64,000 bases of DNA, taken from contig NZ_CP112973.1 in NCBI RefSeq assembly GCF_026410925.1, positions 124,001 to 188,000 on the forward strand, in the 5' to 3' direction. Source of the DNA: Halovenus salina (lineage in GTDB: Archaea; Halobacteriota; Halobacteria; Halobacteriales; Haloarculaceae). Both the position numbers and the translations under genes were made by a program. The notes beneath the pieces are model-generated. The model searched no databases, was not told where the DNA came from, and was given only the letters and a program-made list of their open reading frames with translations. Positions 16,951-59,809 of the stretch are shown one piece after another; the first letter of the stretch is position 1, and every line of letters starts with the position of its first letter.

Positions 16951-17089
16951 GGGCACGTAGTTCAGTCTGGCAGAACAGCCGGATCAAGATCGGCTCACCG
17001 GGAACGTGAGTCCGCGCGGCACGTTCTGCGGCCATCGGTCAGTGATCCGATCATCCGGACGGCCCTGGGTTCAAATCCCAGCGTGTCCA
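16951..17089 (+). tRNA. Intron-containing tRNA-like gene, anticodon unresolved
   Basis: The cloverleaf parts can be aligned: acceptor GGGCACG (16951-16957) with CGTGTCC (17082-17088), A73 at 17089, D-arm GTTC/GAAC, anticodon 5' strand GCCGG (16978-16982) with CCGG (17055-17058), T-arm CTGGG-TTCAAAT-CCCAG. Between the anticodon half-stems lie extra bases with their own pairing (GATCGG/CCGATC and AACGTG/CACGTT). This is typical of an archaeal bulge-helix-bulge intron. Splicing at the canonical 37/38 site removes about 65 nt and gives a 74-nt RNA with anticodon CAA, but the short variable loop does not fit tRNA-Leu. CAC (Val) is possible with another cut. No CCA is encoded. Confidence 0.65.
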
Positions 17090-31939: not shown

Positions 31940-32240
31940 GACATCCTCCCCGCCCTGAAGGGCGAGGTCTCCCAAGCGTTGGGATATTAGGGTTTGCAGT
32001 CTCCCTGTTCTCTCGGTGTGAACCGTCCGCTCTCACGGTTGAACAGGAAGACTCCAGGCTGTGCCAACCAGCCGTTACTCATATCCTCCGTCGGGAGACT
32101 CTGAGTTATCTTTCTGCGAATATTCACCGCACCGTTCACGCCCGCATTCATCGTCGTCTCGCACGACTCACAGACGTACAGACCGCGCTCCACGCGGTTG
32201 CTCTCTCGAATCTGCCCGCAACACGAACACGTCTATCGCT
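31940..32240 (-). pseudogene. TnpB C-terminal remnant with IS200/IS605 right end
   Basis: Minus-strand translation gives CSCCGQIRESNRVERGLYVCESC then AGVNGAVNIRRKI, the zinc finger and last RuvC Asp region of a TnpB, followed by its variable tail and stop at 31987. Beyond it, GACATCCTCCCCGCCCTGAA with its GGGCGAGG complement is a typical right-end hairpin. The N-terminal four-fifths of tnpB is missing. Confidence 0.75.
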
Positions 32241-55257: not shown

Positions 55258-56286
55258 TCATTGCCTCGGCGACGCAGTTGCTGAATCGACGAGCAAATAC
55301 TCTCTATCCCGACTCGTGCCTTCCGCCTTGAGGAGATTGTACTGCTCCATCTTGGACAGGTACGTTCGGACGGTTCGTTTCGTCCGCGGATCGTCAACCT
55401 CCTCGGTATAGCGGTCGTAGATCTCGCTTGGTCCCACGGGGGCATGGTCACGAACAATATCGTAGACAACCCGCTGGTGAGGGGTAAGCGAATCGAGGCT
55501 CTTCTGTCTGATCTGAGCGCGGGCATCCTCTGCAGCATTTTGAAGGATGCCGTCGGTAATCCGCTCACAATTTTCGCGGTTGGCCGTGCTTGCGGCCGTG
55601 CGGAGGATGCCAATCGCGAGGCGGGCATCGCCAGCGGCTGCATCTGCAATCTGGTAGAGTTGGTCGTCGGTGATGACGTCCTCGTTGAGGCCCCATTTTG
55701 CACGAGCACTTAGGATGTCGTACAACTGCTCGTCGTGGTACTTGTCCATGCGGACGTGTTCGCTGGAGCGCAGTCGACTTACGAGCCGGTCGTCGACGCG
55801 TCCAAACAGCTCTTCCTCTTTGTTTGCGATACAGATGATACCGAACTGTGGGAGGCTGTGGAGGTCGTAGATGACGCTCGGGTCTTCGAGTTGGTCAGCC
55901 TCGTCGAGGATGACGACCGTTCGAGGGCCGTCGTGCTGCTGGAGCCGGTCAATGAGCTCGTCGTGGGGTGTTGACTGACGGTGGATGTCGACGGTTGTCC
56001 CAAGTTCATCGAGGATTTGGTAGAGCGTTCGGAATCGGGTATAATTGCGCCAGCAGTTGACGTACGTTGTCTTGATATCGAGGACCTCCTCGCGCAGGCG
56101 TTCCGTGACGAACTTCGAGACGCACGTCTTTCCTGTTCCGCTAGGTCCCGTCACGATAGCGGTGTCAGCCGGCTCGTCGTTCGTAATGGGTTCGAGAACG
56201 CTGGAGAGGAGAGTCACCTCGCTCTCGCGATGCTCAACTTCGCGGGGGACGAATCCGGCTCGGAGGACGCGAGCATCACGTATCAT
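55258..56286 (-). CDS. orc: Orc1/Cdc6 replication initiator
   Basis: 342 residues with an intact AAA+ module: Walker A IVTGPSGTGKTCVSKFV, Walker B TVVILDEADQLED, sensor 1 FGIICIANKEEELFGRVDDRL, sensor 2 GDARLAIGILRTAAS, and a C-terminal winged helix (LTPHQRVVYDIVRDHAPVGPSEIYDRY, TVRTYLSKMEQYNLL). These proteins bind ORB sites and load the helicase. It is the only complete initiator in the window. A single ORB-like box follows its stop codon. Confidence 0.93.
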   Translation of the reverse strand: MIRDARVLRAGFVPREVEHRESEVTLLSSVLEPITNDEPADTAIVTGPSGTGKTCVSKFVTERLREEVLDIKTTYVNCWRNYTRFRTLYQILDELGTTVDIHRQSTPHDELIDRLQQHDGPRTVVILDEADQLEDPSVIYDLHSLPQFGIICIANKEEELFGRVDDRLVSRLRSSEHVRMDKYHDEQLYDILSARAKWGLNEDVITDDQLYQIADAAAGDARLAIGILRTAASTANRENCERITDGILQNAAEDARAQIRQKSLDSLTPHQRVVYDIVRDHAPVGPSEIYDRYTEEVDDPRTKRTVRTYLSKMEQYNLLKAEGTSRDREYLLVDSATASPRQ

Positions 56287-56480: not shown

Positions 56481-56696
56481 TTGAGATCCGCTTCTGTCGC
56501 GACGGGGGATGAACGCTGGGCGGCGACCTTCCGGTCGCACGCCCAGCTCCTCCTCCACGAGTTGGGGGAGTACCTCGGTTACTCGGCGCCACCGCTGTTA
56601 GAACGACTGATCGAAGATGCACAGAAGATTCACCAGCAACGACCAATCTTACAGGAGAGACTCACTGCCGCTACACAGCCGAGAGGTGAGGCTTAG
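56481..56696 (+). CDS. Short ORF, unknown, probable remnant
   Basis: 71 codons starting at TTG; no ATG or GTG in frame. RWAATFRSHAQLLLHELGEYLGY, then APPLLERLIEDAQKIHQQRPILQERL, is clearly haloarchaeal-like coding sequence. The missing start suggests that the 5' end has been lost. No family recognised. Directly after it, MKERLKSIQSEIEELQALGL (56734-56802) is a second tiny coiled-coil frame of unclear status. Confidence 0.35.
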   Translation: MRSASVATGDERWAATFRSHAQLLLHELGEYLGYSAPPLLERLIEDAQKIHQQRPILQERLTAATQPRGEA

Positions 56697-57536
56697 CTAA
56701 AGACCAATGCTCCGCAATTGAAGCAGAGGGGGACATGAAAGAGCGACTCAAGAGCATCCAAAGTGAGATCGAGGAACTCCAAGCACTCGGCCTGGATATT
56801 TGAATCTTTCTCTGGACTTTTTTTATGTATAATCGGTTTGTTGGAGTGATTTATTGAACTCATAAACAAAATGGAAAAACCACATATGACGATCACAGTA
56901 CAATCCAATTCTGCGGCTTTTAAAAAAGAACTCGACCGAGTTGGGTACTTTGACCGGGAAAATGAGCCCCTGCGGTAGGGTTGCATTCTCAATTTGGCCC
57001 GCCGTTGCGGGGGTGTTGAAATTCTTTTAAGTGTTTCTTGCGACAATATGCGTATTGAGGCGGTTCGGTCAGCAGTTCCCCGAAGGGGATCTGGTGGCCA
57101 TTGGCTATCGCGGCCGATCAGCGACCCTTCTCCAAAGCCGTTAGGCTTTGAGCGAATTATTCATCGAAGCTCTACCTGAATTCTCCCACAAAGCCAATTT
57201 GGCTTTGAACTGTCGAGGAACTTCAGAGGGAGCTGCTAAGTCGGTTAATGTAGCGCGTGCGAGAACCCCTTCCGGGGTTTGTTCGGAGGTGTCTCATTGT
57301 GGAGAATTCGTATCTTCACCACGCGTGCACGACTCGCGCGCTACCCTCTGACAGCGTTTAACGAGTACTCAGCACCGCCTTCCTTCTCGAAGAGAACTCA
57401 CTGACTCAGTGCCCAGTCCGCTTCGTCAGTGGCTCTTCTGACTGACTTTGTGTCCCACGCCCAGTGGCGACACTGTCGATACGTCCGCGATACTTAGCTG
57501 AGTCTCACCGTCGCCGTTGAGAGCGTTACAGCACCT
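56697..57536. other. Long gene-poor stretch with structured RNA candidate
   Basis: 840 bp without a convincing gene. 56697-57059 contains AT-rich DNA and a Gly/G-run (ccgccgttgcgggggtgttg). 57060-57360 is unusually rich in hairpins and is listed separately. Frames here have few haloarchaeal coding features. Confidence 0.55.
57060..57360. ncRNA. Candidate structured non-coding RNA (unassigned)
   Basis: Dense nested complementarity. CAGAGG (57224-57229) pairs CCTCTG (57345-57350). GTAGCGCGtgCGAG (57250-57263) pairs CTCGCGCGCTAC (57333-57344), with a 2-nt bulge. Inside are AACCCC-ttcc-GGGGTT (57264-57279) and GTGGAGA/TCTTCAC (57299-57319). Upstream are CCCC-gaa-GGGG (57078-57088) and two near-identical hairpins CAAAGCC...GGCTTTG (57133-57150, 57189-57207). 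No known RNA family (RNase P, SRP, tRNA) matches what I can see. Orientation is unknown; could equally be a DNA element such as a partition or recombination site. Confidence 0.4.
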
Positions 57537-57932
57537 ATGTTCGATGCAAACCACTACACGCATGACCAGTCGTACGTTCCACAGATTAACCGACCGCACG
57601 CACCCGAGCAGTGGCGGACCCGGACGCCCGCCGGACTCACGCTCGTAGAGGCATGGAAGCAGGCAGTCCCGATCCATGCGCCGGACTGCGATGCCGACAG
57701 TACCCGTCTGTATGCACCGTACGATGCGCTCCTCGTTGAGCGCTCGGGGGTTCTCAGGACGGTGTTGAACAACGACGGCCGCGTCGAAACAGACGGTCTG
57801 TCGACCTGTGCAAATTGCGACGGCCTGTATGATCCTCTTCGGACAGAGGGAAGCTGCCGGTGGTGTGGAGCACCGTTTCCAAGCCAGCGGACGACAGCCG
57901 GCGTAACGTTGGTCCGTGGAGGTGAGCAGTGA
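57537..57932 (+). CDS. Zinc-ribbon protein of a small plasmid operon
   Basis: 131 residues. A C-terminal Cys4 ribbon, TCANCDGLYDP then SCRWCGAPFPSQR, follows an N-terminal 95-residue domain of unknown type (APEQWRTRTPAGLTLVEAWKQAVPI, RLYAPYDALLVERSGVLRTVLNND). It starts 105 bp after a structured non-coding region and overlaps the next gene by one base of its stop, so both are one operon. No family name known to me. Confidence 0.7.
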   Translation: MFDANHYTHDQSYVPQINRPHAPEQWRTRTPAGLTLVEAWKQAVPIHAPDCDADSTRLYAPYDALLVERSGVLRTVLNNDGRVETDGLSTCANCDGLYDPLRTEGSCRWCGAPFPSQRTTAGVTLVRGGEQ

Positions 57933-58234
57933 TGAGCGGACCTCCAACAGTCGATCTCGGTGATCTTGACGGTACGCACGGATGGGTGAAGACGAAGGGG
58001 TTCGTCAACTGGACCGAAGATGTCGCCTCTTATCAGCCCCGACAGCGTGTAAAACTCGGTGACGATACGAGTCGGGACGGTGTCGTCTGCACGGTCTGGA
58101 CAGGAGATATTACTCTTGAGGAGGGTGTTGGGTACTACTTCGGCGGCGTGGACGACACCTACGATGAGCGCGAGGAAATTCAACTCAAACTGTTCGAGGG
58201 GTCGTGGGCGAACGAGTTCTGGCGGCGGGAGTAA
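57932..58234 (+). CDS. Small OB-fold-like protein, unknown
   Basis: 100 residues from the ATG overlapping the zinc-ribbon gene stop; a GTG one codon earlier is possible. Pattern WVKTKGFVNWTEDVASYQPR, RVKLGDDTSRDGVVCTVWTGDITLEEGVGYYFGG alternates beta strands as in an OB-fold, and the end LFEGSWANEFWRRE is amphipathic. Predicted nucleic-acid or protein-binding small protein coupled to the zinc-ribbon gene. Function unknown. Confidence 0.6.
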   Translation: MSGPPTVDLGDLDGTHGWVKTKGFVNWTEDVASYQPRQRVKLGDDTSRDGVVCTVWTGDITLEEGVGYYFGGVDDTYDEREEIQLKLFEGSWANEFWRRE

Positions 58235-58325: not shown

Positions 58326-58490
58326 ATGCCTGGGACGATTGGAGATGCCGAACGGGCGCTTCACGATGCAGACGGACACACACCAGCAGTGAATAAAGAC
58401 ATCAAGGTCCCGAGCACTGAAACAGAGGAAGGCACAGAGTCAGTAACTACCGGAGATGCCGACGTAAAAGAGTTGTTACAGCGGCTATAA
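58326..58490 (+). CDS. 54-residue acidic protein
   Basis: ATG at 58326 gives MPGTIGDAERALHDADGHTP and runs to VKELLQRL and the TAA at 58488. It is probably disordered and acidic with an amphipathic C-terminal helix. It follows the OB-fold-like gene after 91 bp and may be the third gene of the operon. Small but of regular codon pattern. Function unknown. Confidence 0.45.
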   Translation: MPGTIGDAERALHDADGHTPAVNKDIKVPSTETEEGTESVTTGDADVKELLQRL

Positions 58491-59197: not shown

Positions 59198-59809
59198 GTG
59201 AAACTCGTTGAATCCGGGGAGCTGTTAGAAGAGGTCTCATTCTCTGCATACGAAGCGAACGAACTTCGGCTGCTCCTTGAACAGCGTCAAGAAGTCGCAT
59301 TCCACGATGATGTCCTCGAAGATGGCGTCATCGGGATGTGTGCTGCATTTGGGGCAAAAGACTCCGGTGACGCCCGGAAGGCACTCGATCTCCTTTTGAG
59401 GGCTGGCGACATTGCTCGTGAGAATGATGCTGAGTCAGTCACCGAAGAACACGTCCGGCAGGCGCGCAACCGCCTGCAACGTGACCAAGTGGTCGAGGGA
59501 ATTCGAAACTATTCAGAGCATAGCCAGCTCGTCCTTTACGCTCTTCTCCAGCTTGAGAAACGTAGGGAGACGCCAGCACGGACGAGTGAAATCCTCGATA
59601 TGTACCAGTCGATTGCGACCAGGAAAGCTCTCTCATCCGTCCCCGAGCGTTCTGTTCGTGACTATCTCACCGAACTGAACCAACTCGGTATTATCTCGTC
59701 AGAAGAGTACAATCAAAGCAAAGGTGGAGGCAAGTACAAGAAACACGAACTGGTTCAGTCTGTCTCAAGTGTGGAGAATGGATTGTCGATTCTTCTTGAT
59801 TCTGAATAG
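59198..59809 (+). pseudogene. Orc1/Cdc6 C-terminal fragment
   Basis: 203 codons from a GTG. SFSAYEANELRLLLEQRQEVAFHDDVLED, then KDSGDARKALDLLLRAGDIAREN is the sensor-2/lid region, and RNRLQRDQVVEGIRNYSEHSQLVLYALLQLEKRR with SVRDYLTELNQLGIIS the winged helix. The whole nucleotide-binding half (Walker A, B, sensor 1) is missing. It cannot be an initiator but could still bind ORB DNA. This is the third orc sequence in the window. Confidence 0.82.

Follow-up and report, generated by a model that had tools for sequence, protein, structure and literature searches.

A conserved promoter-like box and a conserved set of base pairs lie directly upstream of a zinc-ribbon gene in Halovenus salina, and in relatives they keep strict company with three genes, here termed A, B and C. 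We put at about one in two the probability that the element encodes a new haloarchaeal structured noncoding RNA with its own promoter, and that this RNA is the RNA part of a module in the order A, RNA, B, C, working as an RNA-protein system with B and C. The analysis covered a window of 64,000 nt (contig NZ_CP112973.1, positions 124,001 to 188,000), and all coordinates below are those of the window unless a contig or locus is named. In our best reading, the element comprises the promoter-like box and then a structured RNA of ~460 nt that ends just before the zinc-ribbon gene, B (Table 1).

Table 1. Predicted features of the element and the genes on either side of it
Feature	Coordinates	Strand	Supporting observations
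Gene A remnant (last 18 codons and stop)	56922..56978	+	14/18 identical to Haloarcula japonica A
Promoter-like box, TTTAAGTGTTTCTTGCGACAATATGCG	57026..57052	+	Aligned in 27 sequences; single site per genome in 17/17
Structured RNA (predicted)	57054..57514	+	Alignments A8 and A5; compensatory changes; fold z -4.68 (window)
Hairpin P1 (two-storey, 5')	57067..57099	+	Helices 1 and 2; model R1, 81.4 bits at 57022-57102
Hairpin P2 (first CAAAGCC)	57133..57150	+	Helix 3; kept in group I; two compensatory pairs
Second CAAAGCC hairpin	57189..57207	+	Insert lacking in the other 5 alignment rows
Helix P3	57255-57261 with 57335-57341	+	Helix 4; 85.7% of cells paired
Closing helix P5	57358-57373 with 57497-57514	+	Helix 5; six compensatory pairs
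Hairpin P6 (CAGTG-GCGA-CACTG, GNRA loop)	57462..57475	+	Kept in 24/30 sequences
Gene B (131 aa, C-terminal zinc ribbon)	57537..57932	+	Weak Pfam DZR_2 match below cut-off; conserved family
Gene C (100 aa from ATG)	57932..58234	+	Overlaps B stop by one base
Gene D (54-aa reading frame)	58326..58490	+	80-89 aa homologues after C in G015 and G296 (group I)

Extent and surroundings of the element

A preliminary description of this DNA had marked 57060-57360 as a strongly structured stretch without coding features. A structured element is present there, but its borders lie elsewhere, as DNA relatives match beyond both ends. Of the 392 genomes of the order that were searched at the DNA level, 14 had a match; a conserved block lies at 57022-57090, and genomes G015 and G296 show a further one at 57365-57513. 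We therefore place the element at ~57026-57514. Within it, the 5' end of the RNA was set by its distance from the TATA box and the 3' end by the last paired bases. The absence of coding features was borne out: the longest ATG reading frame of the element in the window is 24 aa, and among the nine of 30 sequences inspected no reading frame is shared across elements, the frames of relatives being different.

The same description had placed the stretch between orc and a zinc-ribbon operon and had assigned it to the plasmid. In relatives, the element is tied to the module A, RNA, B, C and not to orc. It is also not particular to the plasmid, as relatives lie on chromosomes, for example in Haloferacaceae archaeon XH8 and Haloglomus halophilum. 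No similar DNA was found in sequenced plasmid and phage collections, and no relatives were found in viral contigs.

A fuller orc gene occupies 55258-56286, and only the C-terminal half of an Orc1/Cdc6 protein (lid and winged helix, 203 aa) is encoded at 59198-59809. Upstream of the element, 56511-56710 holds part of a transposase gene of the ISH8 type (IS4 family), ~80-90% identical to many haloarchaeal copies. Elsewhere in the window, Rfam models identified a sot0042 RNA (31947-32111, - strand, 95.9 bits) and a 139-nt tRNA match (16951-17089) that probably bears an intron and received no ARAGORN call.

Base pairing and compensatory changes

The 301-nt stretch of the preliminary description is more stable than all 100 of its dinucleotide shuffles, with z-scores of -3.75 on the + strand and -3.74 on the - strand; because both strands fold about equally, stability alone leaves the strand undecided. 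All 13 sequences tested (of 30) were likewise more stable than shuffles (z -2.3 to -8.5).

For comparative analysis, the sequences were treated in groups. Group I comprises the window, Haloarcula japonica, XH8 with two identical copies, Hd13, G015, G474 and G296; group II comprises 11 others, with G392 close to them; groups III and IV have five and three members, respectively, and Haladaptatus QDMS2 stands by itself. Structures and pair counts come from one set of alignments, which favours the structures, and the sequences are few (6 and 11). In alignment A8, which holds six of the seven distinct group I sequences, 50 pairs in six helices were paired in 91.2% of cells, compared with 32-40% when partners were slid, and 12 of the 50 pairs had changed on both sides, a number reached by none of 500 shuffles. 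Among the 11 group II sequences, 49 pairs were paired in 98.5% of cells (31-46% when slid), and six of the 49 had changed on both sides. These compensatory changes support base pairing in the element, as judged by sequence comparison.

At the 5' end, the letters of the P1 inner stem change with pairing kept in most of 28 sequences across all groups; when the stretch was folded, the same hairpin did not form in three rows of group III (out of five) or in the group IV row of G405. Both CAAAGCC hairpins that had been described upstream are present in the sequence. The first is conserved in relatives, and the second is confined to this plasmid.

The helix on which the preliminary description had based its covariation check, 12 bp with a 2-nt bulge (57250-57263 with 57333-57344), is likewise present in the window. 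As a conserved helix, this exact register was ruled out, as only 38 of 57 cells (66.7%) were paired across six sequences and compensatory changes numbered zero. A register two bases off, P3, is weakly conserved, with one compensatory pair that is G-C in the window and U-A in two relatives. Nearer to B, the GNRA-loop hairpin lies 49-93 nt before the gene wherever it was found; it is missing in all five group III sequences, and G405 has another loop (30 sequences). The P6 pattern matched once in the window and not at all in 100 shuffles.

Promoter-like box

The box consists of a TATA box (TTTAAGT) followed by a conserved TTGCGACAATATGCG that reaches the likely transcription start; its alignment excluded two sequences identical to XH8. 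The single site per genome (Table 1) was obtained in a search that allowed up to 3 mismatches. Two genomes, that of Hvn. salina itself (G000) and G015, show the box twice. A second, identical genome copy in G000 was considered and rejected, as the end of contig C2 repeats ~42.8 kb of its start (aligned over C2 1-20000 and 30000-42055, the remainder presumed), as in an uncircularised plasmid assembly. G015 carries its two boxes on a single contig of 102 kb (C4), separated by 84.9 kb; the element matches twice there, and we take this to be redundancy of the same kind. In all 29 sequences measured, B starts 446-499 nt from the box, and in one more the distance is 484 nt.

Box-like sites (TTTAAGT, then GGCGAyAAGG) also occur near stand-alone A genes, twice in locus L077 (positions 3730 and 4586) and once in L074 (4801). 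These A-only loci carry sequence related to the box, yet different from it, a hint that A and promoters of this kind are linked. In Halococcus dombrowskii, box-like promoters stand both before and after A.

Genes of the module and their distribution

Among the annotated plasmid matches of A, 6 of 11 are named RNA polymerase subunit epsilon, including the best two (56% and 51% identical), these names being annotation in the sequence records; by sequence, A is homologous to the proteins so named. PADLOC returned one weak match for A (HEC-02B, E 0.005), and a single PHROGs family, without assigned function, matched A weakly (E 1.7e-5). The remnant in the window was identified by tblastn with the Haloarcula japonica protein as the query (E 2e-5, 3-kb subject). 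The rest of the gene has been lost, and a whole-genome search found no A anywhere in the genome.

Relatives of B were found in 65 of 392 genomes (E 0.001), most of them without box or RNA among the loci examined. PADLOC gave no match to B. C had no Pfam match, and nothing of note for it emerged from Pfam, NCBIfam, PADLOC or solved-structure searches. Across these four resources, A, B and C together yielded at most the weak zinc-ribbon (B) and HEC-02B (A) matches, and none of the three received a confident name in Pfam, NCBIfam or PADLOC. The predicted models of B and A were of low confidence, and fold searches gave no match. Gene D seems to extend upstream in frame without an ATG, and its start is tentative when set beside relatives of 80-89 aa.

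Based on profile searches, A, B and C all lie beside the box in 30 of 30 box-bearing loci (29 genomes; the window itself is outside this set). In groups I and II, A lies upstream and shares the orientation; in groups III and IV it keeps its place but is inverted. All three genes together were found in none of 19 box-less loci (five with A only, five with B and C, nine with B only); these loci were chosen by a relative of A or B, and many cover only ~1.5 kb on either flank, where a partner gene farther away would be missed.

Model R1, built on the box and P1, found 17 places scoring at least 56 bits in 15 of 392 genomes, all of them module loci, although every one of these genomes except G266 had a sequence in the training of R1. 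Among loci left out of training, the scores were 73.4 bits for G474, 27.4 bits for G442 and 16.6-23.6 bits for four loci of group III. Lower down, R1 reported 22 places at 21.1-28.1 bits; of the three examined, those in G442 and G280 are module loci and that in G213 (contig C1) is not the module locus of its genome. Model R2, trained on the GNRA region of group II, did not report the window or anything else in its genome, and gave five matches in other loci (E 0.3-0.43), each of which fell on the hairpin it was meant to detect.

Defence-type neighbours were noted at loci L049, L052, L055, L058 and L071, where 5 of 10 proteins, hand-picked from 110 neighbours with no control set, matched defence models; they include an Old/Gabija-like ATPase, a type I restriction enzyme, an MrfA-like helicase, a methyltransferase and a DUF262 protein.

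Comparison with known RNAs

None of the 4227 families of Rfam 15 matched the element at the gathering cut-off, and no Rfam family covers the RNA; the best sub-threshold matches (E up to 5), mir-1288 (17.8 bits) and CRISPR-DR33 (16.7 bits), fall far below it. The sot RNAs are likewise a haloarchaeal family, but there is no sot match in this element. A literature search found no title describing this RNA, this module or such a system in archaea, and the main text of Weinberg 2010 (PMC2864571) contains none of the words haloarcula, halobacteri or haloarchae.

The candidate RNA resembles OLE of Gram-positive bacteria, which is described as large, noncoding and elaborately folded. OLE is part of an RNA-protein complex, whereas for the haloarchaeal RNA a complex is only proposed. 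In addition, OLE is described as ~600 nt long and bacterial, whereas the element has no Rfam match, and no Pfam match of B or C points to a partner of OLE. The OLE covariance model of Rfam 15, which we take to be among the families searched, gave no match in the element.

Alternative explanations

The alternative that survives best, possible but in our ranking below an RNA-protein system with B and C, is that the element serves only as a long structured 5' leader of the B-C message, a cis-regulator such as a site that B or C would bind to control its own expression. Like structured leaders and riboswitches, the element is a structured RNA upstream of an operon. That B always follows the box within 446-499 nt fits a leader, as does the lack of a TATA-like box directly before B, which we found in none of 11 sequences inspected by eye. 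In riboswitches and other cis leaders, however, the same motif stands upstream of different genes, whereas this very long and elaborate element is bound to one module only (17/17 R1 places), with no high-scoring R1 copy before other genes in the 392 genomes. According to one report (PMC4983044), structured leaders are also untypical of haloarchaea, most of whose messages lack a leader (72% in Haloferax volcanii), so ~480 nt before B is unusual.

The preliminary description had offered, beside a regulatory RNA, a protein-bound DNA element. An operator, origin or cruciform of this kind, not acting as RNA, is improbable, and least disfavoured for the box itself, which is strongly conserved DNA. 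An orc gene is nearby, and in haloarchaeal plasmid replication origins, origin recognition boxes flank orc; the company kept in relatives, however, is A, B and C. The two strands fold about equally well, and inverted repeats can keep pairing in DNA too; against this, the GNRA loop is kept, and in group II departures that preserve pairing on only one strand favour RNA. There, those keeping pairing on the + strand only (G.U) outnumber those keeping it on the - strand only (A.C) by 23 to 6, and the strand evidence appears clear; in the window's own group I the numbers are 15 and 12, and the evidence is weak. The RNA reading of the preliminary description is supported by the compensatory changes, the GNRA-loop hairpin and the dedicated promoter-like box, a regulatory role being putative.

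Equally improbable is a type III-like toxin-antitoxin system in which the RNA would be the antitoxin and B a ribonuclease toxin. Such systems pair a tandem-repeat RNA antitoxin with an endoribonuclease of the ToxN type, and they share with this locus the position of the RNA, immediately before a gene for a small protein. The predicted model of B, with two helices and three strands, placed ParDE and DinJ-YafQ entries at ranks 6 and 17 of a fold search, but these matches are not significant (E ~3-4, mean pLDDT 56.6). The RNA also lacks tandem repeats, the region holding just two short two-copy families, and the toxin-antitoxin reading leaves A and C, two further conserved partner genes, unexplained.

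Chance structure in decayed intergenic DNA is the least credible reading, as the ISH8 fragment and the truncated gene A fit it but the promoter box is intact and relatives show conservation and compensatory changes, which in groups I and II refute chance structure for the family as a whole.

Proposed role and implications

Under the preferred reading, a structured RNA acting with B and C, transcription of the + strand would start near 57054, and A, where present, may help RNA polymerase at the box, a role suggested by its position. The RNA and the B-C message would be made as one transcript, since no separate TATA box precedes B. Again judging by position, the RNA may then assemble with B, C or both into an RNA-protein particle; our guess is that such a particle would control transcription or defend against mobile DNA. 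Against this proposal, the window has lost A but kept the RNA.

Most known examples of large noncoding RNAs that fold elaborately and have partner genes dedicated to them are bacterial. OLE, in its published description, is an example of the known kind, a large folded RNA with partner proteins. A broader picture, which we regard as tentative and less probable than the module itself, is of a horizontally moving archaeal RNA-protein machine in which an epsilon-type factor drives one dedicated promoter, and a folded RNA with two small proteins controls transcription or guards against invading DNA. A belongs to a family whose members bear the name of the haloarchaeal polymerase subunit epsilon, but it differs in sitting in a module with an RNA, and its polymerase binding is putative. 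The Halobacterium epsilon subunit is described as allowing the polymerase to transcribe native templates, and its role has been called enigmatic (PMC8305020). If our proposal is correct, a haloarchaeal RNA family with a promoter of its own and a linked epsilon-like gene would offer a handle on this enigmatic subunit, and would provide a candidate RNA-protein complex in organisms already in culture, among them Haloarcula japonica and Halorubrum californiense.
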